DNA from: an uncultured Desulfobacteraceae bacterium
GTDB taxonomy: Bacteria > Desulfobacterota > Desulfobacteria > Desulfobacterales > UBA5852
Direction of reading: 5' to 3'
Assembly (NCBI GenBank): GCA_913060875.1
Contig: CAJXSL010000011.1
Span: 1-64,000, forward strand
DNA length: 64,000 nucleotides
Numbering within the stretch: position 1 is the first letter of the stretch; each line of letters begins with the position of its first letter. Positions 12,184 to 27,538 of the stretch are shown one piece after another. The notes under the pieces are model-generated. The model had not been told where the DNA came from, did not search any database, and worked only from the letters and a program-made list of their open reading frames with translations. Made by a program: the position numbers and the translations under genes.

Positions 12184-12262
<79 letters not shown>

Positions 12263-13506: not shown

Positions 13507-13551
<45 letters not shown>

Positions 13552-13602: not shown

Positions 13603-14133
13603 GTTGATGGGTTTCTGTGATCTGGGATGGGTTTGTCGAGGAATTTTGACAGGGGCCAGACAATTTTTCGGTTGATCCTGACAAAATGGCCGACACGTTG
13701 TCGATGCGTCGTCAACATTGATGCCGGTAATAGACCAACAAGCTGCCGGCCACGCTCATTTTTCAAGCTGGTGTTGCTTGCGGCCATAAATGCCGACACC
13801 AAAGCGAAAGCTATCAAAGGTATACATTGGGAACTCAAGCGAGCTGAAAAGAGCTTTAGTTGGTTGTCCGATATCGTGACAATGATGTGGTCAATCTGGA
13901 TTGTGCCATTTCCCGACAGAAGAAACAGATGACGACAAGCAAACCGGAGAACCAAAGAATATTCTTGACAGGAATATTCAACTCCGATAGTCCTCACACT
14001 CAGTTATCCAAATATTCCTGGAATCATAACAATTTTGATTCGTCAGCTCGAAATCCGGGCCGCTACCGGCCGTCAGGCGGCCGGACACCATTGATCCCCA
14101 CGTCCTCCCGGACTCTGAACCGAAAGTGAGGTT
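13603..14133. other. Gene-free region with IS-end-like repeats
   Basis: No supported gene lies here. Two degenerate TGACA...GGCCGACA units (13644-13662, 13676-13695) match the unit at 12353-12372 and look like remnants of an insertion-sequence end. Reading frames on both strands have no ribosome binding site and no recognisable product. The last part should hold the promoter of the downstream ABC transporter operon, but I see no convincing hexamers. Confidence 0.5.
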
Positions 14134-15108
14134 ATGCCGCTTCTCGAAGTCGACCACCTGAAGACCCACTTCCGCACGCCGCATGGCATGGTAAAAGCGG
14201 TGGATAACGTCAGCCTGACTTTAGACAGCGGCGAAGTCCTGGGGGTTGTGGGGGAATCGGGTTGCGGCAAGAGCGTGCTCTCCCTGTCCATCCTGCGGTT
14301 GTTACCCAGCCCGCCGGCGCACTTCGCCGGGGGCCGGATTGTGTTTGAAGGCATGGACCTGCTGGCCCAACCGGACGAAGCGATCCGCAATATCCGGGGG
14401 AATCGAATCAGCATGATTTTCCAGGAACCCATGACCGCCCTCAACCCCGTGTTTACCATCGGCAACCAACTCTCCGAGGTCTATCGGGTGCACCGGTCCA
14501 TCAATCAAAGCGAGGCCCTGGAAAAATCCGCCGCCATGCTGGAGAAAGTCGGCGTGCCGGCGCCCCGCCGCCGACTCCGGGAATATCCCTACCAGCTCTC
14601 CGGCGGCATGCGGCAGCGTGTCATGATCGCCATGGCCCTGGCCTGCCGACCTGCCCTGCTCATCGCCGATGAGCCCACCACGGCGCTGGACGTGACCATC
14701 CAGGCCCAGATCCTGGACCTGATGAACCAGCTCCGTGAGGAACTCCAGACCGCCATCGTCATCATCTCCCACGATCTCGGGGTTATTGCCGAGACGGCCG
14801 ACCGGGTGGTGGTGATGTACACCGGCCGAATCGTGGAGACCGCGACGACGCTGTCCCTGTTCGAAACCCCCCGGCACCCTTATACAAGGGGCTTGATGCG
14901 GGCGATCCCATCGCTGGCCCCGGGAGGCGTCCAGGGGGATCTCTATGAAATCGACGGGACAGTGCCGAGTCTGCTCAGCCTGCCGACCGGATGCGCCTTT
15001 CACCCGCGCTGCCCCCGGGCGGAGGCTGTCTGCCGCGAGAAACGCCCCGAACTGCGTGAACTGGCCCCCGGACACCGGGTGGCCTGCTGGATGGCCGACC
15101 ATGACTGA
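14134..15108 (+). CDS. dppD: Peptide/opine-type ABC transporter ATP-binding protein (DppD/OppD family)
   Basis: The 324-residue ATPase has Walker A GESGCGKS near residue 40, the Q-loop ([12 protein letters not shown]), the signature LSGGMRQR, Walker [13 protein letters not shown] and the switch His in IISHDLG. The C-terminus carries the oligopeptide-family domain with [14 protein letters not shown], whose Cys residues can bind an iron-sulfur cluster in this family. It energises import through the DppB/DppC pore. It is the first gene of a plus-strand run to 24688 and overlaps the next gene by eight bases. The substrate is inferred from neighbours to be lysine-related, saccharopine-like or peptide. 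Confidence 0.93.
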
Positions 15109-16156
15109 TTTTTTACAGGTCTATAACCTGGTCAAACACTTTCCGGTGCGACGCGGCCTGTTGCGCAGCCGCCGGGAAGTGGTGCATGCCGTGGACGGGA
15201 TCTCCTTCAGCCTGGCAGCGGAAGAGACCCTGGGGCTGGTGGGGGAATCCGGCTGCGGCAAGTCCACCGCCGGCCGTTCCATCCTGCGCTTGATCGAACC
15301 CACCGACGGACAGGTATGGTTCCAGGGCCGAAACGTGCTGTCGATGGGGCATCGGGAAGAACGGGAAATGCGTCGGGAGATGCAGATGATTTTCCAGGAC
15401 CCTTTCGGGTCCCTCAATCCCCGGCTGACGGTGGAACGCATCGTGGAGGAACCCCTTCTGACCCATCGCGTCGGTGACAGCCGGGAACGCCGGCAGCGGG
15501 TGGAGGAAGCCTTGCAGACAGTGGGACTGCTGCCCGAGCATATGAAGCGCTTCCCCCACGAATTCTCCGGCGGGCAGCGCCAGCGCATCATGATCGCCCG
15601 GGCGCTCATCCTGCAGCCCAGCCTGATCATTGCCGACGAGCCGGTGTCGGCCCTGGATGTTTCCGTGCAGGCCCAGATTCTCAATCTAATGGTGCGGCTG
15701 CAACGCCAGTTCCGCTTCTCCTATGTCATCATTTCCCATGATCTGGGGGTAATCCGCCATGTCAGTCACCGGGTGGCGGTCATGTATCTCGGACAGATCG
15801 TGGAAACCGCTCCGGCCGACGCCCTTTTCGAGGCCCCGAAACATCCCTACACCAGGGCACTGCTTTCGGCCGTGCCCCAGCCGGACCCCCGCCGCAAACA
15901 GCGGCGGATCCTGCTCACGGGGGATGTGCCGTCCCCCCTGCACCCCCCGTCGGGGTGCCGCTTTCACCCGCGCTGCCCGGAGCGCATGGCCATATGCAGC
16001 CGCGAGGCACCGGTCACACGGGAAGCCGGCCCCGGACATCGCGTGGCCTGCCATCTGCATACGGAAGGCCCGGTTTGGGAACCGGTGCCGCCCGAGGGAA
16101 AACCCCGTCCGAGGCACGCCTTGGACGGCAACACCAATCGCAAGGTGCAACCGTAA
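15101..16156 (+). CDS. dppF: Peptide/opine-type ABC transporter ATP-binding protein (DppF/OppF family)
   Basis: The 351-residue second ATPase has Walker [10 protein letters not shown], signature FSGGQRQR, Walker [13 protein letters not shown] and the C-terminal [14 protein letters not shown] Cys motif. It pairs with DppD to form the heterodimeric motor. An upstream in-frame extension exists, but the ATG at 15101 is chosen because it is followed at once by the typical start [19 protein letters not shown] and overlaps the dppD stop by eight bases. The last 30 residues are a Pro-rich, probably disordered tail. Confidence 0.93.
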
Positions 16157-16172: not shown

Positions 16173-17675
16173 ATGATGAAAAGATGGATGCTGATCAGTC
16201 TGTTGGCCGTGATCGGCCTGGCGCTGGGGGCCTTTCCGGCCGCCGCCGCAGGTGCCGACACTCTGGTGGTGGTGCAGGAAGCCGAGCCCGTGGGCCTGGA
16301 CCTGATGCAAAACTCGATCCAGACGACCATGAGCGTCTGCTACAACATTCACGACACGCTTTTCCACCCCCAGGAGGACGCCTCCGTCCTACCGGCCCTG
16401 GCCGAAAAATGGGAAAAAACGGACGATCTGACCTGGAAGATCACCCTTCGCAAGGACGCCGTGTTCCACAACGGTGAGCCGGTCAATGCCGCCGCCGTCA
16501 AGTTCTCCTTCGACCGCGTCAGCAAGGAAGGGATGCAATCCCCCCACAAGGGCAAACTGCTCTCGGCTTTCACCGAACTGGCCGTCGTGGACGAATACAC
16601 CTTTACGATCAAAACCGGCAAACCTTACGCCCCCGGCCTCTACATACTGGGCTACTACCTGCCCATCGTGCCCCCCAAATACGTCCAGGAAGTAGGCGAC
16701 GAGAAGTACAACACCGATCCGGTGGGATGCGGCCCCTACAAGCTGAGCAAATGGATGCGGGGCGAAGAAATTGTGCTGGAGCGTTTCGACAAGTACTACG
16801 GCCCCCAACCGGCCTATAAAACGGTGGTCTTCAAGGCCAATCCCGAAGAAGCCTCCCGCGTGGCGTCCCTGCTGACCGGCGAAGCCCAGGTTGCCAGCGC
16901 CATTCCGGTACACCAGCGCAAGAAGATCGCCGGGTCGGGCAAGGCCTATCTCACCAATCAGATGGGCGTCATGCCCTACCTGGGCATCAACACCTACGAG
17001 GCGCCCTTCGACGACGTGCGGGTCCGCCAGGCCCTCAACCACGCCATCGACAAAGCGCTCATCGGCAAGGCGCTGTTCGGCGGCAAGGCCATTATCTGCA
17101 ACGGCCCCATCAGCCCGCGCACCTTCGGTGCCAGCCCCAACCTGAAACCCTACGCCTACGATCCTGCCAAGGCCAAGGCGCTTCTGAAAGCGGCCGGCCA
17201 TGCCGACGGACTCGACGTGCGGCTGGCCTACCCGACCTACATGTCCCAGATCCAGGAGCAGGCCGAAGCCATTGCCGCCAATATGGGCAAAGCCGGTTTC
17301 CGCGTAACCCTGGAACCCTACGAACGCGCCGTCATGTGGGAACGCTACAAGGGTAAAAAGCACCAGCTCTACATCTACTGGTGGGATGATGCGCCCGAGC
17401 CCGACCGCTACATTTACTCCCTGTTCCACTCCAAGAGCCGGGACTATTACTACAAAAACGAGGCCGTGGACGCGCTGCTCGACAAGGGCCGTACGATCAT
17501 GGACCGCGCCGAGCGGGCCAAGGTCTACGCCCAGATCGACGAAATGCTCTACGAGGACGCCCCCTGGGCTTATCTATACATCGTGCCCGAGGTGTTCGCC
17601 GTAGCCAATGACGTGGACTACCAGGGACGCCGCGACGGCTTCCTGAACATGCGCTACGCCAAACCGAAAAAGTAG
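16173..17675 (+). CDS. dppA: ABC transporter substrate-binding protein, family 5
   Basis: This 500-residue protein has a clear signal peptide (MMKRWMLISLLAVIGLALGA to about AAAAGA) and the family 5 solute-binding fold, with LPALAEKWEKTDDLTWKITL, GCGPYKLSKW and VRQALNHAIDKALI as landmarks. No lipobox Cys is present, so the protein should be free in the periplasm. It delivers the ligand to DppBC. AAGGAGGG precedes the ATG by six bases, the strongest ribosome binding site in the operon, fitting high expression. The ligand class (peptides, opines, nickel chelates) cannot be told from sequence alone. Confidence 0.93.
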   Translation: MMKRWMLISLLAVIGLALGAFPAAAAGADTLVVVQEAEPVGLDLMQNSIQTTMSVCYNIHDTLFHPQEDASVLPALAEKWEKTDDLTWKITLRKDAVFHNGEPVNAAAVKFSFDRVSKEGMQSPHKGKLLSAFTELAVVDEYTFTIKTGKPYAPGLYILGYYLPIVPPKYVQEVGDEKYNTDPVGCGPYKLSKWMRGEEIVLERFDKYYGPQPAYKTVVFKANPEEASRVASLLTGEAQVASAIPVHQRKKIAGSGKAYLTNQMGVMPYLGINTYEAPFDDVRVRQALNHAIDKALIGKALFGGKAIICNGPISPRTFGASPNLKPYAYDPAKAKALLKAAGHADGLDVRLAYPTYMSQIQEQAEAIAANMGKAGFRVTLEPYERAVMWERYKGKKHQLYIYWWDDAPEPDRYIYSLFHSKSRDYYYKNEAVDALLDKGRTIMDRAERAKVYAQIDEMLYEDAPWAYLYIVPEVFAVANDVDYQGRRDGFLNMRYAKPKK

Positions 17676-17737: not shown

Positions 17738-18664
17738 ATGCTGCCTTATCTACTGAAAAGACTCTGGCATACCGTGTTTGTCATCATCGGCATTTCGGTG
17801 ATCAGCTTTTTCTTCATCCACCTGTCCGGTGACCCGGTCATGCTCATGCTGCCGGCCGACGCCTCCCATCAGGAGATCGAGGCCCTGCGGGAACAGCTGG
17901 GCTTCAACGCCCCGCTCTACGAGCAGTATTTCCGTTTCGCCTTCAGGGCCATCCAGGGGGATTTCGGAAACTCGCTCTACTACAAGATTCCGGCCATGCA
18001 GCTGATCATCGAACGGCTGCCGGCCAGCCTCGAGCTTGCCACTGCGGCCATGATAATCGCGCTGGTGGTGGCGGTGCCCATCGGCATCATCTCCGCGGTC
18101 CGGCGGGGATCCCTGCTCGACATGGGCAGCATGCTGGGGGCGCTTTTCGGGTTGTCCATGCCCCACTTCTGGCTGGGCATCATGCTGATCCTGCTCTTTT
18201 CCGTCCAGCTCGGCTGGCTGCCCACCTCGGGCCGGGGTACGCTGGCCCACCTCATCATGCCGTCGCTGGCCCTGGGGCTGAGCCTCACGGCCATGTTCGC
18301 ACGGCTGACCCGTTCGGTCATGCTGGAGGTGCTCAATCTCGACTATATTCGCACCGCCCGCTCCAAAGGCCTCAGGGAGCGCATGGTCATCAGCAAACAT
18401 GCCCTCAAAAACGCCCTGATTCCCATCGTGACCGTGGCCGGCATGCAGTTTGGTTTTCTGCTGGGCGGCACTGTAATCATCGAAACGGTCTTTGCCTGGC
18501 CGGGCGTGGGACGGCTGGTGGTCCAGGCGATTTTCAACCGCGACTACCCGCTGGTTCAATCCATCGTGCTGGTGCTGGCCCTGATCTTCGTGGCCGTCAA
18601 TTTTCTGGTGGATATGCTCTACATGTACCTGGATCCCCAAATCAACTACTTCGAGGACAAATGA
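17738..18664 (+). CDS. dppB: ABC transporter permease (DppB family)
   Basis: The 308-residue membrane protein has six hydrophobic segments and the BPD_transp_1 permease domain. The coupling-helix EAA-like loop is RTARSKGLRERMVISKHALKNALIP, which docks on the ATPases (landmark only). The N-terminus MLPYLLKRLWHTVFVIIGIS is standard for DppB. It overlaps the next permease gene by four bases. Confidence 0.94.
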   Translation: MLPYLLKRLWHTVFVIIGISVISFFFIHLSGDPVMLMLPADASHQEIEALREQLGFNAPLYEQYFRFAFRAIQGDFGNSLYYKIPAMQLIIERLPASLELATAAMIIALVVAVPIGIISAVRRGSLLDMGSMLGALFGLSMPHFWLGIMLILLFSVQLGWLPTSGRGTLAHLIMPSLALGLSLTAMFARLTRSVMLEVLNLDYIRTARSKGLRERMVISKHALKNALIPIVTVAGMQFGFLLGGTVIIETVFAWPGVGRLVVQAIFNRDYPLVQSIVLVLALIFVAVNFLVDMLYMYLDPQINYFEDK

Positions 18665-19575
18665 ACGTGCAGGCCCTCCGTAACGCGCAACTGTTCGACA
18701 AGATCGAACCCCGGCTGCGGTATGCCGGCGAAACCATGCGGGAGGTGGCCCGCCGCCCCAGCGCCCTGGTGGGCGGCGTCATGCTCGTCCTGGTGCTCCT
18801 GATCAGTCTGGGCTTTCCCCTCTTCTACCCCATCGACCCCCTGGAGCAGGACCTCCTGGCCCGCTTCACACCGCCGGCCTGGCAGGACGGCGGCGTCTGG
18901 GTGCACCCCCTGGGTACCGACAACCTGGGACGGGATGTCCTGGCGCGCCTGCTGCACGGCAGCCGGGTATCGCTGCTGGTGGGGTTCTCCGCCGTGCTGG
19001 TAGCCGCGCTGGCCGGCATCGTCCTGGGGCTGGTGTCGGGGTACTATGGCGGCCGACTGGACAGCATCGTCATGCGCATTGCCGATGTTTTCATGGCCTA
19101 CCCCTTCATGCTGCTCACGATTTCCGTCATCGCCGTACTGGGCACGTCGATCTTCAACCTCATCCTCGTGCTGGGCCTTTCCGATTGGGTGACTTACGCC
19201 CGGACCATTCGCGGCAGCGTGCTTTCCCTGAAGGAGAAAGAGTTCGTGGAAGCCTCCCGGGCCATCGGCACGCCGCACCGGGTGATCATCTTCCGTCACA
19301 TCCTGCCCAACGTGTTCTCGCCCCTGCTGGTGCTGGGCACCCTGCGGGTGGCGAACATCATCATCTGGGAAAGCGGTCTCTCTTTTCTCGGCATGGGGGT
19401 CCCCCCTCCGATGCCGACCTGGGGACGCATGCTGGCCGAAGGCCGCATCTACATTACGGACGCCTGGTGGCTGGTGACCCTGCCGGGCGTCGCCATCATG
19501 ATCACGATTCTGGCCATCAACTTGCTGGGTGATGGGCTGCGGGACGCACTGGACCCGCGCCTGCGCAATATTTGA
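18661..19575 (+). CDS. dppC: ABC transporter permease (DppC family)
   Basis: The 304-residue protein is the second permease, with an extended N-terminus, a first hydrophobic helix (GGVMLVLVLLISLGFPLFYP), the LGTDNLGRDVLARLLHGSRVSLLVG signature of DppC proteins and an EAA loop EFVEASRAIGTPHRVIIFRHILPN (landmarks). The ATG overlaps dppB (ATGA). With dppB it forms the import channel. Confidence 0.94.
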   Translation: MNVQALRNAQLFDKIEPRLRYAGETMREVARRPSALVGGVMLVLVLLISLGFPLFYPIDPLEQDLLARFTPPAWQDGGVWVHPLGTDNLGRDVLARLLHGSRVSLLVGFSAVLVAALAGIVLGLVSGYYGGRLDSIVMRIADVFMAYPFMLLTISVIAVLGTSIFNLILVLGLSDWVTYARTIRGSVLSLKEKEFVEASRAIGTPHRVIIFRHILPNVFSPLLVLGTLRVANIIIWESGLSFLGMGVPPPMPTWGRMLAEGRIYITDAWWLVTLPGVAIMITILAINLLGDGLRDALDPRLRNI

Positions 19576-19632
19576 TTCGATCAGCGGCCGCCGATGGAAG
19601 CACCCAACGCGACCAAAAGGAGAAATGCTTTG

Positions 19633-20817
19633 ATGAAAGTACTGGTACTGGGTCTGGGACTGCAAGGTAAGGCGGTTGTGCAGGATCTGGTGAAAAACGA
19701 CCAAGTAAGCGAAATCGTGGTGGCGGATATGGATGACGCCGTCGTCAAGGCCCACCTAGCGGGCAAAGGCTACAGCAAGTGCCGCGCCGCCCGCCTGGAC
19801 GCTTCGCAGGCGGCGGAATGCCTCGACCTGATGCGCGCCGTAGCCCCTCAGGTAACCATCTGCATGCTGCCGCCCGATTTCAACCATCCCATTGCCCAAG
19901 CCGCCCTGGCCGCCGGCTGCCATTTCGTGAGCAGCAGTTATACCGGCCGTGTGTCCGAACTGGATGCCGAAGCAAGAGAGAAAGAAATTATCGTCCTGCC
20001 CGAAATGGGCATGGACCCGGGTATCGACCTGGTGCTGGCCCGCCTGGCAGTGGACGAACTCGACGAAGTGCACGGCCTCTATTCCTACGGGGCAGGGCTG
20101 CCCGAACCCGCCTGCGCGGACGACAACCCGCTGCACTACAAAATCACCTGGACATTCGACGGTGTGCTCAAGGCCTACAAACGCCCGGCCCGCATGCTCA
20201 AGGACGGCCGTGAAATCGCCATCCCCGGCGAAGCCATCTTCCAGGAGAAACACGGCCATACGGTAACCTTTCCCGGCTTGGGACCGCTGGAGGCTTATCC
20301 CAACGGTGACGCCATCCACTATATCGAGGCCTTCGACCTGGGGGCCCACATCCGGGACATGGGCCGTTTTGCCCTGCGTTATCCCGGCCACCGGAAATTC
20401 TGGTCGGTGATGGCCCAGATGGGCTTCTTCGACGACCGGCCCGTGGATGTCGACGGCCACCCGGTCTCTCCCCGCCGGTTTTTGGTGAACCACCTGGCGC
20501 CCCAACTGCAATTTGCCGATGACGAACGGGACATGGTGGTGTTGCGGGTTACCGCCTGGGGCCGCAAGGACGGCAGGACGCAAAGGGTTACTTACGACCT
20601 CATTGACTACCGGGACCTGGCGACGGGCCTCTTCGCCATGAACCGGACCGTAGGCTACACGGCCAGTATCGGGGCTCAGATGATCCTGGACGGCCGGATC
20701 ACCCGTCCGGGCGTCCTCTCCCCGACCCGCGACGTGCCACCCGGAGACCTTGTTGAAGCCCTCACGTCGCGCGGCATGAAACTCGATCACCGGACAGAGG
20801 AAATCGAATCGGCCTGA
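19633..20817 (+). CDS. Saccharopine dehydrogenase (SDH half of the lysine-degradation enzyme)
   Basis: The 394-residue protein starts with a Rossmann loop (VLVLGLGLQGKAVVQDLV) and matches the C-terminal half of eukaryotic aminoadipate semialdehyde synthase at several landmarks: MLPPDFNHPIAQAAL, EMGMDPGIDLVLARLAVDE, SYGAGLPEPACADDNPLHYK and VGYTASIGAQMILDG. This half oxidises saccharopine to aminoadipate semialdehyde and glutamate. The start at 19633 has AAGGAG upstream; an earlier in-frame ATG at 19594 would add 13 residues. The matching lysine-ketoglutarate reductase half is encoded at 23381. Homology is read by eye. Confidence 0.8.
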   Translation: MKVLVLGLGLQGKAVVQDLVKNDQVSEIVVADMDDAVVKAHLAGKGYSKCRAARLDASQAAECLDLMRAVAPQVTICMLPPDFNHPIAQAALAAGCHFVSSSYTGRVSELDAEAREKEIIVLPEMGMDPGIDLVLARLAVDELDEVHGLYSYGAGLPEPACADDNPLHYKITWTFDGVLKAYKRPARMLKDGREIAIPGEAIFQEKHGHTVTFPGLGPLEAYPNGDAIHYIEAFDLGAHIRDMGRFALRYPGHRKFWSVMAQMGFFDDRPVDVDGHPVSPRRFLVNHLAPQLQFADDERDMVVLRVTAWGRKDGRTQRVTYDLIDYRDLATGLFAMNRTVGYTASIGAQMILDGRITRPGVLSPTRDVPPGDLVEALTSRGMKLDHRTEEIESA

Positions 20818-20821
20818 AACC

Positions 20822-22018
20822 ATGACACCGCAGCAAACCGAACGCGATGATCTGGAACGCGAAATCCAGATACGGGTGGGCCAGCGGGTGCGCGAACTTC
20901 GCCTGGCCGCCGGCATGACCGCCGTGGAGGTCTCCGGTCGTTCCGGAATCTCCCAGGGCCAGCTCTCCAAGATCGAAAACGGCAAGGCGGTGCTTTCCAG
21001 CAAGGTCCTGGCCGCTCTGTGCCGGGTTTTCGATCGGCCGATGGGCTATCTTTTCCAGAGCCGCGACGAAATGCCACGGGTACTGGGTACCCTGACCACC
21101 GTAAAAGGCCCCGAGGACAAAGGGATCAAGGCCTTTGCCGACAATGTCCACCGCCGCACCGGGAAACGCATTTCGCTCATTCCCCTGAGCCTGGCCCAGT
21201 TGGGAACGGCCTGCACCCAGGTCGAGGCCCTGCGGGAAGGGCTCATCGATCTGTTCATCGAGGAGCCTTTTTACTATGACGCCTTTGTGCCCGGTTTCAG
21301 GCTCTTCGCGCTCCCCTATACCTTTCGGGACGAGGATCACCGCCAGGCCTTTCTGTCCGGCGACCACTTCCGTCATGCGCTCTGCGAGCCCCTTCGTCGG
21401 GCCGGCATTCGTTTTTTGAACTCCCGCTGGAACTGGTTCCGGGGCCGGGAATGGGTGCTCGTGGCCGAAAAACCCATCACGGAACCCCAGGACATCCGCG
21501 GTTTGCGGGTCCGCACGCCGCTGTCGGACATCCACCAACACTTCTGGCGGCTGATGGGCGCCCATCCGGTGGCCGTACCCTGGAACGGGGTCGCTGCCGC
21601 CCTGCGGTCCCGCAAAGTAGACGTCGTGCCCACCCATAAGACCCATCTCTATCCCCTGAGGTTTTGCCGCTATGCCCGTTTCGTGACGCGGTTGGCGGAC
21701 CTGCCGCCGGTTTTGTCGCTGGGGATCAACGACAGCCGCTACCAGGTGCTGCCTCCAGGGATCCAGGAGGGCCTGAAAGATGCCTGCGACACCGCCGGGG
21801 AATTTTTCAGTCGCTGTGTGCTGGATGCCGAAAAAGAAAACGAACGCCTCAACATCAGCCGCTTCAAGGCGGTCTATTTGACGGTCGATGTGGCCCTGTG
21901 GCGGAATGCGGTGGACGTCGCCCGCCAGCGCCTTATCGAAGAAGGTCACCTGGATACGGCTGTCTGGGAAGCTGCCATGGCAGCCGCCCCGGGGAATGCG
22001 GAAAGGACGACGCAATGA
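20822..22018 (+). CDS. XRE-type regulator fused to a TRAP/DctP-like ligand-binding domain
   Basis: The 398-residue protein begins with a helix-turn-helix of the Cro/CI type at about residues 17-72 (GQRVRELRLAAGMTAVEVSG, SQGQLSKIENGK). From about residue 95 to 370 it resembles a DctP-type TRAP solute-binding protein: LREGLIDLFIEEPFYYDAF, FRLFALPYTFRDEDHRQAF, the ITEPQDIRGLRVRTP motif with its ligand-binding Arg, and VAAALRSRKVDVVPTHKTH. No signal peptide or membrane segment separates the two, so the binding domain must work in the cytoplasm as a sensor. It probably controls the surrounding cluster. It starts four bases after the SDH stop and overlaps the next ATG. Confidence 0.85.
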   Translation: MTPQQTERDDLEREIQIRVGQRVRELRLAAGMTAVEVSGRSGISQGQLSKIENGKAVLSSKVLAALCRVFDRPMGYLFQSRDEMPRVLGTLTTVKGPEDKGIKAFADNVHRRTGKRISLIPLSLAQLGTACTQVEALREGLIDLFIEEPFYYDAFVPGFRLFALPYTFRDEDHRQAFLSGDHFRHALCEPLRRAGIRFLNSRWNWFRGREWVLVAEKPITEPQDIRGLRVRTPLSDIHQHFWRLMGAHPVAVPWNGVAAALRSRKVDVVPTHKTHLYPLRFCRYARFVTRLADLPPVLSLGINDSRYQVLPPGIQEGLKDACDTAGEFFSRCVLDAEKENERLNISRFKAVYLTVDVALWRNAVDVARQRLIEEGHLDTAVWEAAMAAAPGNAERTTQ

Positions 22019-23373
22019 GCTATACCACCCGGCTTCTGGCCGAGTATGTGCTGGACCTGGACGTTCACCAGCTACCTTCTGCCGTGGGCGAGGCGGTCAA
22101 GGATTGCCTGATCGACCTCCTGGCGGCTGCGGCCGCAGGCGCAACAACCCCGCCCGCACGTCATACCCGCCGCATGGCGGCAAGCTTCTTTGCCGATGGA
22201 CCTTCGAATGTGTGGTTCACGACCAAACGCCTGCGACCCGAGGCGGCGGCTCTGGTGAACAGCGCCGCCGCCAGTGCCCTCGACCTGGACGACGGCCAAA
22301 GGGCGGCCGGCGGACACCCGGGAGCCGCGATTCTGCCCAGTGTGTTGGCCGTCGGCCAGGCTGTGGACGCCGGTGGGCGCGACATCATTGCGGCGGCCAC
22401 AGCCGGATACGAAGTCGCGGTGCGCATTGGCGCCGCGCGGGATTTCAGCCGACTGGACACCCTTTCCACAGGCCGCTGGAGCGCCTACGGTGCCGCCGCG
22501 GCCGCCGGCCGGCTGCGTTGTGTCACGCCCGAAGTGCTGGCCCAGGCGCTGGCCATCGCCGGGGTGCTTTCGCCGGGGCTATCGGCGGCAGGGTACAGCG
22601 CGGTCATGGGCAACCAGGTGAAGGAAGGCATCCCCTGGTCCGTCTTCACAGGGCTTGCCGCTCTGGAACTGGCCGAGCAGGGCATGACCGGCCCCCTGGA
22701 CATTCTGGATCATCCGGACTACTTCGATGGCCGCCGCATTCTGCGCGGGCTGGGTCACACGTACGCGGTGACCGATGTCTATTTCAAACCCTACGCCTGC
22801 TGCCGCTGGATCCACGCCGCCATCGACGGGCTGATCGATCTGATGGCGCAGGCGGCAATAGCTTCGGAGCAGATCACCGGGATCACGGTCCACACCTTCG
22901 AGCGCGCCCTGCGCCTCAACAATTACCCTGACCCACCCACCATCGAGGCCGCCCAATACAGCGTGCCCTTCTGTTTGGCTCTGGCGGCACGAAGCGGTGC
23001 CGCCGCCCTGCTGCCGATATCACCCACCCGACTGACGGAACCGAAGACCGTAGCTCTGGCGCGGCGGGTGTGTCTTGCGGTGGATACGGACATGGATCGA
23101 CGTTTCCCCACCGAGGCCGGCGCCCGGGTGGTCGTGGAAACCGACCGGGGCCGCTATGAGCAAACAGTCCGCTTCCCTCTGGGAGACCCGCGCAATCCCC
23201 TGGGAAGGCCGCGACTGGTGGAAAAATTTGAGCGACTCGCCGACGGTGTGATGACGGCCGTGGACCGCCGGCGGCTGCTGGAAGCGCTGACGGCCATCGA
23301 AACCGGGACCATGGCGGATTTCGCCCCACTTTTGCAGGGGCGGCCGGAAGGGTCTGCGAACCATAAAAGGTGA
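22015..23373 (+). CDS. MmgE/PrpD family protein
   Basis: The 452-residue protein shows the MmgE/PrpD family pattern: an all-helical first domain with VGEAVKDCLIDLLAAAAAGA, SALDLDDGQRAAGGHPGAAILPSVLAVG, and FKPYACCRWIHAAIDGLIDL in the middle, then the smaller alpha/beta domain. Family members include 2-methylcitrate dehydratase, cis-aconitate decarboxylase and iminodisuccinate epimerase. Which reaction is run here is unknown. The ATG at 22015 overlaps the regulator stop (ATGA). Its location between the two saccharopine enzymes suggests action on an amino-dicarboxylate or on a product of that route. Confidence 0.85.
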   Translation: MSYTTRLLAEYVLDLDVHQLPSAVGEAVKDCLIDLLAAAAAGATTPPARHTRRMAASFFADGPSNVWFTTKRLRPEAAALVNSAAASALDLDDGQRAAGGHPGAAILPSVLAVGQAVDAGGRDIIAAATAGYEVAVRIGAARDFSRLDTLSTGRWSAYGAAAAAGRLRCVTPEVLAQALAIAGVLSPGLSAAGYSAVMGNQVKEGIPWSVFTGLAALELAEQGMTGPLDILDHPDYFDGRRILRGLGHTYAVTDVYFKPYACCRWIHAAIDGLIDLMAQAAIASEQITGITVHTFERALRLNNYPDPPTIEAAQYSVPFCLALAARSGAAALLPISPTRLTEPKTVALARRVCLAVDTDMDRRFPTEAGARVVVETDRGRYEQTVRFPLGDPRNPLGRPRLVEKFERLADGVMTAVDRRRLLEALTAIETGTMADFAPLLQGRPEGSANHKR

Positions 23374-23380
23374 TAACCAT

Positions 23381-24688
23381 ATGAAAATCGGCATTCGTGC
23401 AGAAGACAAAAGCCCGTGGGAGCGGCGCGTTCCCCTGGTGCCGGAGGATATCCGGAAACTGGCCCGGGAAGGCCTCCAGGTGGCGGTGGAATCCAGCCCC
23501 CAGCGGGCCATCGGCGATACGGAGTTCAAGGAGGCCGGGGTAGCGGTGACAGAATCCCTGGTGGACTGCCCCATCATCGTGGGCATCAAGGAAATCCCCT
23601 CGCAACGGCTCGAAGAGAAAAAAACCTATCTTTTCTTCTCCCACGTCATCAAGGGCCAGGCTTACAATATGCCCATGCTGCGCCGTTTGATGGAGCTGAA
23701 GGCTACCCTGATCGATTATGAGCGGATCGTGGACGAACAAAACCGCCGTTTGATCTTCTTCGGACGCCATGCCGGCCTGGCCGGTATGGTCAACAGCCTG
23801 TGGGCCCTGGGCCAGCGACTGGACTGGGAGAAAATTGAAACGCCCCTGACCCGCCTGCGGCAGGCCCGGACTTATCGCAACCTGGATGCGGCGCGGGAAG
23901 ATCTCTCCGTTGTAGCCGAAGATATCAAGCGCGGAGGGATGCCCGCCGTGACCACCCCCCTGGTCTGCGGTTTCACCGGTTACGGGAATGTCTCCCAGGG
24001 CGCCCAGGAAATCTTCGACCTCCTGCCCCACGAAGAGATTGCGCCGGATCAACTGGGCAAGCTCCCGGCCGGCGTCAACGACCGCCTCTTCAAAGTCGTC
24101 TTCCGGGAAGAGGACTGCATGGTCCCCCTGGAGACCGGCGCCGCTTTCAATCTGGCGGACTATTTTGACAGAGGCAGCCAGGCCTATCGCAGCGTTTTTG
24201 CCCCCCTGGCCGAGCACCTCACCCTGCTGGTGAACTGTATCTACTGGGACCAGCGTTACCCGCGGCTGCTAACCTCGGCGGACTGCCGGCGCATGTGGGC
24301 CAACGGACGGCAGCCCAAACTGCGGGTTGTCGGGGATATCAGCTGTGATCCGGACGGGTCGGTCCAGTGCACCGTAAAGCCCACCGGACCCGGCAATCCG
24401 CTCTATGTCTACGAGCCGGAAAGCGCCCGCGCCGTCGACGGCGTGGCCGGGCACGGACCGGTGGTCATGGCGGTTGAAATCCTGCCGGCGGAGATTCCCC
24501 GGGAATCGTCGCAACATTTCAGCAGCGTATTGAGAGGCTACATGCAGGCTCTGGCGACGGCGGATTTCAGTCAGCCCTTCGAGGCCCTGCAACTGCCGGA
24601 CGAACTGAAACGGGCGACCATCCTCCACAGGGGTGAGTTGACAACCGCCTACCGCTACCTGCAAGCCCACCTGGATGCATCCGCCTGA
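23381..24688 (+). CDS. Lysine-ketoglutarate reductase-like protein (LKR half)
   Basis: The 435-residue protein corresponds to the N-terminal half of eukaryotic aminoadipate semialdehyde synthase. Landmarks are SPWERRVPLVPEDIRKL, KKTYLFFSHVIKGQAYNM, LIDYERIVD, GRHAGLAGMVNSLWALGQRL, GFTGYGNVSQGAQEIFDLLP and NCIYWDQRYPRLLT. It belongs to the alanine dehydrogenase/transhydrogenase N-terminal superfamily. LKR joins lysine and 2-oxoglutarate to saccharopine with NADPH, or runs the reverse. AAGGTGAT lies eight bases before the ATG. Together with the SDH gene it completes a split saccharopine pathway; the direction and true substrate are inferred. Confidence 0.8.
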   Translation: MKIGIRAEDKSPWERRVPLVPEDIRKLAREGLQVAVESSPQRAIGDTEFKEAGVAVTESLVDCPIIVGIKEIPSQRLEEKKTYLFFSHVIKGQAYNMPMLRRLMELKATLIDYERIVDEQNRRLIFFGRHAGLAGMVNSLWALGQRLDWEKIETPLTRLRQARTYRNLDAAREDLSVVAEDIKRGGMPAVTTPLVCGFTGYGNVSQGAQEIFDLLPHEEIAPDQLGKLPAGVNDRLFKVVFREEDCMVPLETGAAFNLADYFDRGSQAYRSVFAPLAEHLTLLVNCIYWDQRYPRLLTSADCRRMWANGRQPKLRVVGDISCDPDGSVQCTVKPTGPGNPLYVYEPESARAVDGVAGHGPVVMAVEILPAEIPRESSQHFSSVLRGYMQALATADFSQPFEALQLPDELKRATILHRGELTTAYRYLQAHLDASA

Positions 24689-24983: not shown

Positions 24984-25469
24984 ATGAAAAGAGTGGGGAT
25001 TGCAGTTTATGATTTAGGTTTGCCCTTGGGGGAGATTCGGCCTGGAAACACCTGGCCGGAGCACCACCACATCTCGATTGACGGCGCGGCAGACGACCAT
25101 TTCGTCGAAAAAGACGGGATCTGCTTTGCCGGCACCCACCTGATCCTCGATTTCTGGGGAGCCAAACACCTGGACAACTTGTCACGGATGGAGACGGCGC
25201 TAAGGGAATGCGTGGACGCGTGCCGCGCAACGCTCCTGCACATCCATCTTCACCATTTCACGCCCAACGGCGGCATATCGGGGGTGGCGGTGCTGGCGGA
25301 GTCCCACATCAGCGTGCACACCTGGCCGGAAAGGGATTTCGCCGCGTTCGACATTTTCATGTGCGGCAACGCTCAACCCGAAGCGGCCCTGCCGATCCTC
25401 GAAAAGGCCTTCGCACCGCAAACCGTGAATTTGACCGAAAAATTAAGAGGAATTCGTGACGATGCCTGA
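24984..25469 (+). CDS. speD: S-adenosylmethionine decarboxylase proenzyme
   Basis: The 161-residue protein contains the prokaryotic class 1B SpeD core: [14 protein letters not shown], a [34 protein letters not shown] region (landmark), and FDIFMCG. The Ser in AESHIS is the residue that cleaves itself to form the pyruvoyl group. The enzyme makes decarboxylated AdoMet for spermidine synthesis. There is an N-terminal extension of about 45 residues compared with the short class 1B enzymes. An A/G-rich tract with seven G residues lies upstream of the ATG. It overlaps speE by 14 bases. Confidence 0.93.
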
Positions 25470-26322
25470 ATTCATCGAAACCCTGTATGATTGCTATGGC
25501 CAGGTTTTTCGCATCGACGAGAAGCTGCACGAAATCAAAACCGACCACCAGCATCTGATCATCTTTCACAACGCCGCCTTCGGCCGCGTGATGGCCCTGG
25601 ACGGGATCATCCAGACAACGGAAAAAGATGAATTCATCTACCACGAGATGCTGGCCCATGTGCCGATTCTGTCCCACGGGAACGCCAAACGGGTGCTGAT
25701 CGTCGGGGGTGGCGATGGGGGCATGCTGCGGGAAGTTATCCGCCATCGATCCGTCGAAGATATCACCCAGGTGGAAATCGACCGCCAGGTCATCGATCTT
25801 TGTCGGGAATACCTGCCCAATCATTCCCGCGGGGCTTTCGACGACCACCGGGTCAACATCGTCATCGACGACGGGTTGAACTTTGTTCGCACGACACCGG
25901 AGCGCTTCGACGTGATCATCTCGGACAGCACCGACCCGATCGGGCCGGGGGAGACCCTGTTCAGCCAGGATTTTTATGCGGCCTGCCGCCGGTGTCTCCG
26001 CCCGGGCGGTATCCTGACGACCCAGAACGGCGTCTTCTTCATGCAAAAGGAAGAAGTCGCCACCACAGCACGGCGCATGGCCCGGGTATTTGATGACTGG
26101 CATTTTTTTGCCGCGGCCATTCCGACCTACATCGGCGGCATCATGGCCTTCGGCTGGGGAACGGACAACCCGGCTCTCAGAAGAACCGGGCTCGACATTC
26201 TGGCCGCGCGCTACCGCCAAAGCGGCATCGCGACCCGCTACTACAACCCGGAAGTCCACAGGGCCGCCTTTGCCCTGCCCCAGTATATGCTCGAAGCGAT
26301 CGGGAAGGCCACCAATGAATAA
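25456..26322 (+). CDS. speE: Spermidine synthase (polyamine aminopropyltransferase)
   Basis: The product of about 288 residues has the SpeE fold: an N-terminal beta domain with [32 protein letters not shown], the AdoMet-type loop [18 protein letters not shown], and the active-site [14 protein letters not shown] (landmarks). It transfers aminopropyl from decarboxylated AdoMet to putrescine. The likely start is GTG at 25456, five bases after AAGAGG; an ATG two codons later (25462) is the alternative. It overlaps speD upstream and the decarboxylase gene downstream. Confidence 0.95.
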
Positions 26323-27538
26323 CCTGCTTTATGCTTCCTATGCGCATGGCGCCCGATACCGGCGATACGTCCAGGCCCACGGTGCGCCCCTGCTGATACT
26401 GGATGCCCGCAAGGTCGAAGCGCAGTACCGGGCGCTTAAAAAGGCCCTGCCCGCCACCGACCTTTACTACGCCATCAAGTCTTTGCCGCACCCGGCCATT
26501 CTTGAAATGCTCGCCGGTCTGGGCGCAGGATTTGACCTGGCCTCCTCAGGCGAAATTGCCCTGGTCCGGGAACGGCAGGTTTCGCCCCGGCGGACCCTGC
26601 ACTCTCATCCCATCAAACGGGACCGGGACATCCGGGATGCCCTGCGGTTCGGCTGCACCACCTTTGTGGTGGACAACACGGATGAACTCCTGAAATTCCT
26701 GCCTTACAAGCACCGCGTCGGGCTCTTGCTGCGCATCAGCTTCCGCAGCCGGGCGGCCGTGGTGGACCTGTCCAAGAAGTTCGGCTGCGCCGTGTCGGAA
26801 GTCCCTGGAATGCTGACCCTGGCGGCCCGCCTGGGCATCCATATCAAGGGCCTGTGTTTTCATGTCGGCTCCCAGTGCCTGGACACCAAGCAGCAGGTGG
26901 ATGCCATCCACACCTGCAACACCCTGATTCGGCAGCACCGCGACACGGGGGCGGCCCCCATCAGTATGCTCGACATCGGCGGCGGTTTTCCGATTGCGTA
27001 CGATGGCAAGCCCCTGGACATCGACCGCTACTGCGCCCCCATCCGCCGGGCCCTGGTCGAACTTCCGCCCCATGTCAGCGTTGTTGCCGAACCCGGCCGC
27101 TTCATCTCCGGACCCGCCATGACCTGTGTCGCCACCGTCATCGGCAAGGCCTGGCGCGACGGTCATTATTGGTATTACCTCGACGACGGGGTCTACGGAT
27201 CGTTCAGCGGCCAGCTTTTCGACCACATGCGCTATCCCCTGGAACTATTTTCCGATGATGAGCGCCGTTTCCCCAGCGTTCTGGCCGGCCCGACCTGCGA
27301 CAGCATCGACGTGATTGCCGAAGATATTCCCCTGCCGGAATTGCATCTGGGCGATGTGGTGGTCGGGCACATGATGGGCGCCTATACGGCCGCCTCGGCC
27401 ACCCGATTCAATTCGTTGGAGAACGCACGTGTGATCGTGGTGAATGCGCACCCTGGAGAAGCGGACGCATCGGGCGAAGTCCCGATGAAAGCAGGGAGTT
27501 CGGATGCTGCGGGTGGCGCTTCCCGATTTGTCCATTGA
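26315..27538 (+). CDS. Ornithine/lysine decarboxylase, PLP type III (alanine-racemase fold)
   Basis: The 407-residue protein is a group IV decarboxylase: PLP Lys in [14 protein letters not shown] near residue 50, FHVGSQC, the GGGFP glycine loop, EPGRF for phosphate binding, and the catalytic Cys in GPTCDSIDV. It should make putrescine from ornithine, or cadaverine from lysine; substrate choice depends on residues I cannot judge. The ATG at 26315 lies within the speE 3' end (eight-base overlap). With speD and speE it forms a complete three-step route from ornithine to spermidine. The C-terminal 25 residues are low-complexity. Confidence 0.9.

Follow-up and report, generated by a model that had tools for sequence, protein, structure and literature searches.

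A gene of an uncultured Desulfobacteraceae bacterium joins a Cro/CI helix-turn-helix (HTH) domain to the binding domain of a TRAP transporter, which raises the questions of what such a protein does, which genes it would act on and how it arose. The original prediction had read it as a cytoplasmic ligand sensor that controls the ABC importer and saccharopine genes around it. We followed this up in the window, that is, the whole stretch of 64,000 nucleotides that was analysed, and in related loci from other genomes.

A Cro/CI HTH domain on a leaderless TRAP binding domain

The gene, an XRE-DctP fusion (20822..22018, + strand), starts with ATG and encodes 398 amino acids. Its HTH domain, placed by Pfam and by comparison with relatives, spans residues 19-80 (20876..21061, +): Pfam assigns residues 23-77 to HTH_3 (E=4.8e-12, 46.2 bits against a cut-off of 23) and residues 19-71 to HTH_31 (E=3.3e-12, above the curated cut-off). 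The DctP domain, delimited by structure-sequence match, fold and alignment, comprises residues 84-390 (21071..21991, +) and contains R231, R207 and E98; the Pfam model DctP (PF03480) covers residues 93-340 (E=3.6e-34, 118.8 bits against a cut-off of 23.4). The NCBIfam model TRAP_S1 scores 94.8 bits and thereby exceeds its cut-off of 50, while the narrower TIGR00787 (dctP) reaches 88.9 bits, under its cut-off of 175, and PRK08154 (BoxR) matches the HTH part only (E=1e-8, 34.7 bits against a cut-off of 204). Pfam gave no match in the fusion to a LacI HTH or a LacI-type binding domain at E<=0.001, to SBP_bac_5 (the C-terminal domain is DctP) or to a shikimate-kinase-like C-terminal domain.

Solved structures agree with this assignment. 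By sequence, 109 distinct sequences with solved structures match the fusion at E<=1, and the top matches are TRAP DctP/SiaP proteins with E from 1.8e-16. An AlphaFold2 model computed from the window protein and nine relatives (mean pLDDT 86, pTM 0.78) consists of an N-terminal helical bundle followed directly by a mixed alpha/beta domain. In a fold comparison that re-examined Foldseek's own top matches and hardly probed the HTH part, whole TRAP binding proteins among the 50 matches listed align over 296-307 positions, from about model residue 80 to about residue 392, with Z scores of 31.2-33.6 and rmsd of 2.3-4.1 (4ovq: Z 33.6, 300 aligned, rmsd 2.6). The TRAP domain, which had been described as nearly full, is thus present and complete, and the mismatch to DctP that had been named as refuting appeared neither in the profiles nor in the fold.

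Inspection and hydropathy analysis found no signal peptide in the fusion, whose N-terminus is the HTH and whose maximum 15-residue hydrophobicity is 1.65, against 2.59 and 3.02 in two exported binding proteins; by eye, leader-like sequence precedes the DctP domain in 28 HTH-free proteins. A tblastn search with the DctM and DctQ proteins of another fusion locus (L027) gave no match in the 64-kb window at E<=1e-4. The combination of a Cro/CI HTH and a TRAP binding domain without a signal peptide, and the absence of TRAP membrane subunits, were therefore both correctly called in the original prediction. We rejected the possibility that the fusion is an ordinary TRAP subunit, as export signal and membrane partners are absent in the window.

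Gene context and distribution of the fusion

The fusion gene is the seventh of nine genes on the + strand. It is preceded by two ABC ATPases with Pfam ABC_tran and oligo_HPY domains (OppD-type, 14134..15108; OppF-type, 15110..16156, start approximate), an exported binding protein of SBP family 5 (16173..17675; SBP_bac_5 E=6.1e-89, hydrophobic N-terminus), two permeases (OppB-type, 17738..18664, BPD_transp_1; OppC-type, 18661..19575, BPD_transp_1 and OppC_N) and a saccharopine dehydrogenase family enzyme (SDH; 19633..20817, in a reading frame that opens at 19594; Sacchrp_dh_C E=3.6e-57). It is followed by an MmgE/PrpD family enzyme (22015..23373; Pfam, scanned from 22030) and a lysine-ketoglutarate reductase (LKR)-like enzyme (23381..24688; AlaDh_PNT_N). 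The gaps between the nine genes are, in order, 1 (given the approximate OppF start), 16, 62, -4, 57, 4, -4 and 7 nt, the fusion gene lying 4 nt behind SDH and overlapping the MmgE/PrpD start with its stop by 4 nt. Because of these short gaps and overlaps, the nine genes look like one transcription unit.

The solved structure nearest to the window SDH is the SDH part of mitochondrial AASS (E=3.1e-40), followed by saccharopine dehydrogenase/reductase and then by carboxyspermidine dehydrogenase at 6.8e-9, and for the LKR-like protein the top structure is the other half of mitochondrial AASS (E=1.8e-73). Among solved structures, the MmgE/PrpD protein matches IDS-epimerase best (E=7.3e-26), with weaker matches to IRG1/cis-aconitate decarboxylases (3.5e-14 and below). 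Saccharopine, iminodisuccinate and opines are secondary amines with two carboxylated arms. Since saccharopine and iminodisuccinate share this opine-type chemistry, our guess from gene context is that the operon substrate is an opine- or saccharopine-like acid. Past the operon, the window contains polyamine genes (24984-27538: S-adenosylmethionine decarboxylase, spermidine synthase and ornithine/arginine decarboxylase). Ahead of the operon's upstream region, the 3' end of tRNA-Pro (window 12184-12260) is repeated exactly about 1.3 kb downstream at 13526-13548, possibly as an old integration site. Elsewhere in the same genome (L005, 754-2049), a 431-aa protein apparently combines, on reading of its sequence, a RecA/KaiC-like part, a Cro/CI HTH and a cupin-like tail.

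After removal of duplicates (L023 and L030 are one contig, L025 and L026 encode one protein; each pair was taken once), we counted 17 distinct XRE-DctP fusion genes; two loci (L036 and L037) were left out as HTH-only matches. In the genome samples, for which at most 4-6 candidates were scored per genome, 13 of 297 genomes of the phylum match at E<=1e-20 and three carry the full fusion (own, G012, G021), eight of 291 genomes of the order match at E<=1e-40 and five carry it (own, G355, G364, G474, G492), and four of 385 genomes of Tistlia's class match at E<=1e-45, with the full fusion in Tistlia only. Among six genomes of the window's family including its own, four of which are less than 95% complete, the fusion was found in the own genome only. 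A pattern-based scan of GTDB species genomes with a three-row alignment matched at least 11 loci, nine of which are fusions, while the same genomes gave no match with the single window protein as query. One genome (G474) has three XRE-DctP genes, and two Mesorhizobium plasmids (H1 and H2) carry one further fusion, annotated as 'dctP: TRAP transporter substrate-binding protein'. The fusion is matched by 639 plasmid records, nine of them at >=80% coverage; besides H1 and H2, identity is below 30% among the 30 best. Nine phage records match, none at 80% query coverage.

The gene context is conserved. SDH is the next match directly upstream of the fusion in 14 of the 17 cases; in Tistlia (L032) it lies about 4 kb upstream in the same gene run, and no SDH was found beside the L025 fusion or directly upstream of the L027 fusion. 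MmgE/PrpD follows downstream on the same strand in 14/17, with gaps of up to about 1.5 kb and, in L034, one SDH-like gene in between; in Mesorhizobium it belongs to the divergent gene group, and none was detected downstream of the L027 and L068 fusions. An Opp importer lies upstream in 11/17, the contigs of L031 and L035 starting too late for an upstream importer to be scored, and Tistlia and Mesorhizobium have an ABC importer of another kind. The L027 and L068 fusions, on one contig of G474, flank a TRAP transporter (DctP, DctM, DctQ), hydantoinase A/B and SDH; the third fusion of this genome sits on another contig with an Opp operon. LKR is near the fusion in three cases only (window, L028, and L029 on the opposite strand), and in Tistlia DctM and DctP follow about 5-7 kb beyond MmgE.

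Single loci show further variation. SDH is tandemly duplicated inside the operon in L033 (6640-8990) and L064 (8922-11325), a trimethylamine methyltransferase family gene and an FAD-dependent oxidoreductase adjoin the fusion operon in L034 (9938-12763), and a gene with an MmyB-type regulator ligand-binding domain and HTH_31 lies downstream of the Tistlia operon (L032, 13990-15405).

A candidate operator and its regulatory reading

Inspection by eye of 13 upstream stretches of 250-400 bp picked out a palindrome in 11; the two others were L033, where sites lie further upstream, and L034, where only an intra-operon stretch was covered. In the window, this candidate operator is the 21-bp palindrome AATATTCTTGACAGGAATATT (13958..13978, unstranded). 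For a leave-one-out analysis, the palindromic 21-bp motif was built from ten loci and scanned over the whole eleventh locus (11-64 kb). The window site, centred at 13968, scores 35.0, the runner-up in the whole 64 kb 12.0, and the promoter site ranks first in nine of 11 loci. In L025 and L027 it comes second to a different intergenic site, immediately ahead of the following gene (C45 peptidase and TRAP binding protein, respectively). L033, held out of the motif, has the two best sites of its 18.9 kb 416 and 488 bp upstream of oppD, and L028 and L064 have second sites upstream of oppD. In L030, a second strong match (18637, 21.0 bits) lies at the locus end, away from the operon.

The best scores in 33 loci without an XRE fusion (36 scanned, three dropped for known sites: L073, L032, L074) are 21.2 (L021), 16.6 (L016) and 13.0. 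The low-scoring promoter sites of L027 (14.1 bits) and Tistlia (20.3 bits) therefore do not stand out by score alone. In L029, L031, L034 and L035, whose sequence ends before the promoter, the best motif score is 10.0-16.5. A shared inverted repeat had been expected upstream of both 14134 and 19633; it is present at the first position, while none was found ahead of SDH, the site at 13968 being the single high-scoring one in the window; 19633 lies inside the operon. The predicted target of the fusion includes MmgE/PrpD besides the importer and saccharopine genes.

Site comparison places a candidate -35 box, TTGACA (13965..13970, +), inside the operator. At the centre of nine operon-proximal sites, TTGACA is read on the operon strand in 9/9 and on the opposite strand in 0/9, where the sequence is CTGTCA, TTGTCA or ATGTCA. 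Since the palindrome would allow either strand, such a strand bias marks a -35 box within it. Three sites depart from the pattern: CTGTCA in Tistlia, TTGTCA in Mesorhizobium (towards the fusion) and TTGGTA in L027. The window's -10 box is weak (TAGTCC, 2/6), and good -10 boxes are found behind some sites (TACAAT in L067, TATAAA in L028). Among the 12 rows compared, there is little variation in the recognition helix (GISQGQLSKIENGKA in the window), which diverges most in Mesorhizobium (GMSVSQLSKLETGKA).

With a protein over the -35 box, repression is most simply the outcome, and we consider it probable that the fusion is a one-component, cytoplasmic, ligand-responsive and self-regulating repressor that is inducible by the operon substrate; the computed results thus support the original prediction of a ligand sensor that would control the surrounding genes. 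A dimer of the fusion would bind the 21-bp palindrome across the -35 box of the importer/SDH/regulator/MmgE operon and block RNA polymerase at its promoter. The imported substrate or an early intermediate, presumably a carboxylated compound of the opine- or saccharopine-like class, would then fill the DctP cleft and close its two lobes; this closure would shift the HTH pair out of register and switch on the operon, the regulator's own gene included.

The same palindrome could instead serve an activator of transcription, or a repressor that binds DNA in its ligand-loaded form only. Regulators of the same build go both ways, DsvR being described as positive on sugar uptake and SgrR as negative on itself in the excerpted source (PMC13060122), and the weak -10 box in the window would suit an activated promoter. 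The sites are, however, centred on a perfect TTGACA in 9/9 comparisons, a good element that the protein would cover. Induction is the usual regulatory logic of operons for import and breakdown, which is the context found here. We therefore regard both of these modes as unlikely.

Somewhat less likely still is that the palindrome belongs to another regulator and that the fusion acts elsewhere. Among the 291 genomes of the order, the operator pattern with <=1 mismatch occurs in 12, namely all five with an intact fusion, G446 and six others, so that 7/286 genomes without an intact XRE fusion have such a site (G446 among them), and a 21.2-bit match precedes the GntR-DctP gene of L021 by 61 bp; the reversed control pattern matched one genome. 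In G355, which has an intact fusion, the <=1-mismatch match is located off the operon. Exact matches occur in five genomes (own, G474, G492, G446, G479): in G446 (L089) the site precedes oppD by about 100 bp, and a fusion remnant and MmgE follow, while no operon gene was found beside the G479 match. Against another regulator speaks that the palindrome tracks the fusion through several transporter contexts and two alphaproteobacterial lineages, being present with Opp operons, the Tistlia ABC operon, the Mesorhizobium divergent region and the TRAP gene group of L027. Moreover, the 19-bp operator pattern has a single exact match in the own genome, the window site (one further match has three mismatches), and a second Opp operon without a fusion in L066 has no comparable site (runner-up 7.7 versus 30.9). 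At the level of sequence, the palindrome goes with the fusion whatever the transporter type.

On the short contig of L089, OppD runs into the C-terminal part of the XRE-DctP gene, followed by MmgE, a junction that is either a deletion or an assembly join.

That the fusion is no regulator at all, being decayed, accidental or a cytoplasmic binding protein that does something else, is highly improbable: about 1% of binding-protein-profile matches were predicted to be cytosolic in a census of 49 strains, as excerpted (PMC9602780), but the fusion is intact in 17 genes and its HTH is at least as conserved as its DctP part (40-61% versus 34-54% identity to the window protein among 11 relatives).

Origins of HTH-DctP proteins and known counterparts

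In a tree of 46 DctP domains, all 17 XRE fusions form a single clade (support 100/99). Their sister group consists of four ordinary TRAP binding proteins (beside the L027 fusion and in L043, L061 and L063; joint group 99/96), and the separate DctP of Tistlia (L053) falls outside it. A fusion by chance or by assembly was rejected, given this one clade; the fusion is old and retained. Three of the four sister proteins are encoded near hydantoinase A/B genes, at a distance of up to about 2 kb; this arrangement, seen in L091 and L092 among others, hints that the ligands are cyclic amides or the acids formed by opening their rings.

Sequence alignment to a solved structure pairs R231 of the fusion with SiaP R147, which we take to be the canonical arginine of the carboxylate site. 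R231 is kept in 17/17 XRE fusions and 28/28 plain binding proteins (45/45 compared). E98 is kept in 17/17 fusions, 4/4 sister proteins and 3/24 other binding proteins; for R207 the counts are 17/17, 4/4 and 0/24. Pairwise alignment pairs R207 with SiaP R127, at a position where the multiple alignment has a gap in 23 of the 24 other binding proteins; R231 is the one residue for which we claim a SiaP counterpart. As all three residues are retained in fusions and sisters, the pocket, whose integrity the original prediction had wanted checked, looks intact and akin to that of the sister TRAP transporters.

A second HTH-DctP protein has a separate origin. In G026 (L075, 12334-13509, -), a 391-aa protein combines a GntR HTH (E=1e-21) with a DctP domain (E=4.6e-46), and its gene shares a row with a methyltransferase-like gene and the P, Q and M genes of a TRAP transporter (neighbours named by eye). 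Its sensor domain is 48% identical to the neighbouring TRAP binding protein, with which it pairs in the tree (99/94), and the AU test rejects its grouping with the XRE fusions (p=0.001 under that model, with the group taken as named beforehand). A single event behind XRE and GntR fusions was rejected accordingly. A search of 297 genomes from the phylum at E<=1e-40 brought up no further GntR fusion, the three other matches being DctP domains only. Like the XRE-DctP protein, the GntR-DctP protein of G026 carries a leaderless DctP domain on an HTH, with transport genes adjoining; unlike it, it has a GntR HTH and its TRAP transporter in the same gene row. Given this separate origin, DNA-binding domains have, as read from the tree, captured TRAP binding proteins at least twice. 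The GntR-DctP case suggests a route in which the transporter's binding protein is duplicated, the duplicate loses its leader and gains an HTH; the XRE-DctP fusion would likewise derive from an exported TRAP binding protein, by loss of the signal peptide and acquisition of a Cro/CI HTH.

The palindrome at position 2701 of L021, which resembles the XRE-DctP operator and precedes the GntR-DctP gene, may reflect chance or a shared site.

Several known systems resemble the fusion in part. SgrR and DsvR also have an N-terminal HTH and a transporter-type binding domain as sensor, and SgrR self-regulates, as described in the excerpted source (PMC13060122). Their sensor is, however, SBP_bac_5 instead of DctP, and they act in glucose-phosphate stress instead of on an importer/dehydrogenase/epimerase-like operon. 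Both are cytoplasmic, with an HTH type other than that of the fusion. LacI/GalR regulators, which are said in a partial source to derive from periplasmic sugar-binding proteins (PMC6079105), share the working principle of an HTH on a periplasmic-binding fold, whereas the fusion has a TRAP-type fold and a Cro/CI HTH. The parallel to LacI/PBP fusions drawn in the original prediction thus holds for the principle, SgrR, with HTH and binding protein, being closer than LacI. BzdR/BoxR have the same HTH class and a ready-made domain on it as effector sensor for catabolic genes, but there the sensor is a former shikimate kinase and no binding protein, according to the excerpted text (PMC3602430).

Synthetic repressors have been built by joining periplasmic binding proteins to HTHs, with Xre among 15 DNA-binding domains in the same partial source (PMC6079105); these are man-made chimeras of ABC-associated binding proteins, whereas the fusion is natural and uses a TRAP protein. 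According to the census as excerpted (PMC9602780), whose list includes PF03480, profiles for binding proteins also pick up the sensor domains of regulators, while the excerpted part of a TRAP review mentions only fusions of membrane subunits (PMC5812351). No described HTH-DctP fusion was found among the open-access literature matches listed. As regulators made of an HTH and a binding protein are known, the principle is not new; the DctP fold as a regulator's sensor, its operator and the double origin appear to be.

It is quite conceivable, though we would stop short of calling it probable, that TRAP binding proteins are recurrent raw material for cytoplasmic transcription factors. DctP would have been captured once by a Cro/CI HTH and, in a separate event, by a GntR HTH; in both cases the transporter's pocket would have been retained, making sensor and transporter respond to a common ligand. 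Later, the XRE branch would have left the TRAP system and would control, through its own palindrome, ABC operons for an undescribed opine- or saccharopine-like nutrient handled by SDH-type and iminodisuccinate-epimerase-like enzymes. HTH-DctP regulators are easily overlooked, as the labels of the Mesorhizobium copies illustrate. With a single protein, palindrome and operon, the system lends itself readily to testing, and it points to an uncharacterised pathway of uptake and breakdown. If true, this would be a naturally evolved counterpart of a goal of synthetic biology, the use of a transporter binding protein as a gene switch, and since TRAP binding proteins are structurally well covered, such a natural template for conversion into sensors would be useful.
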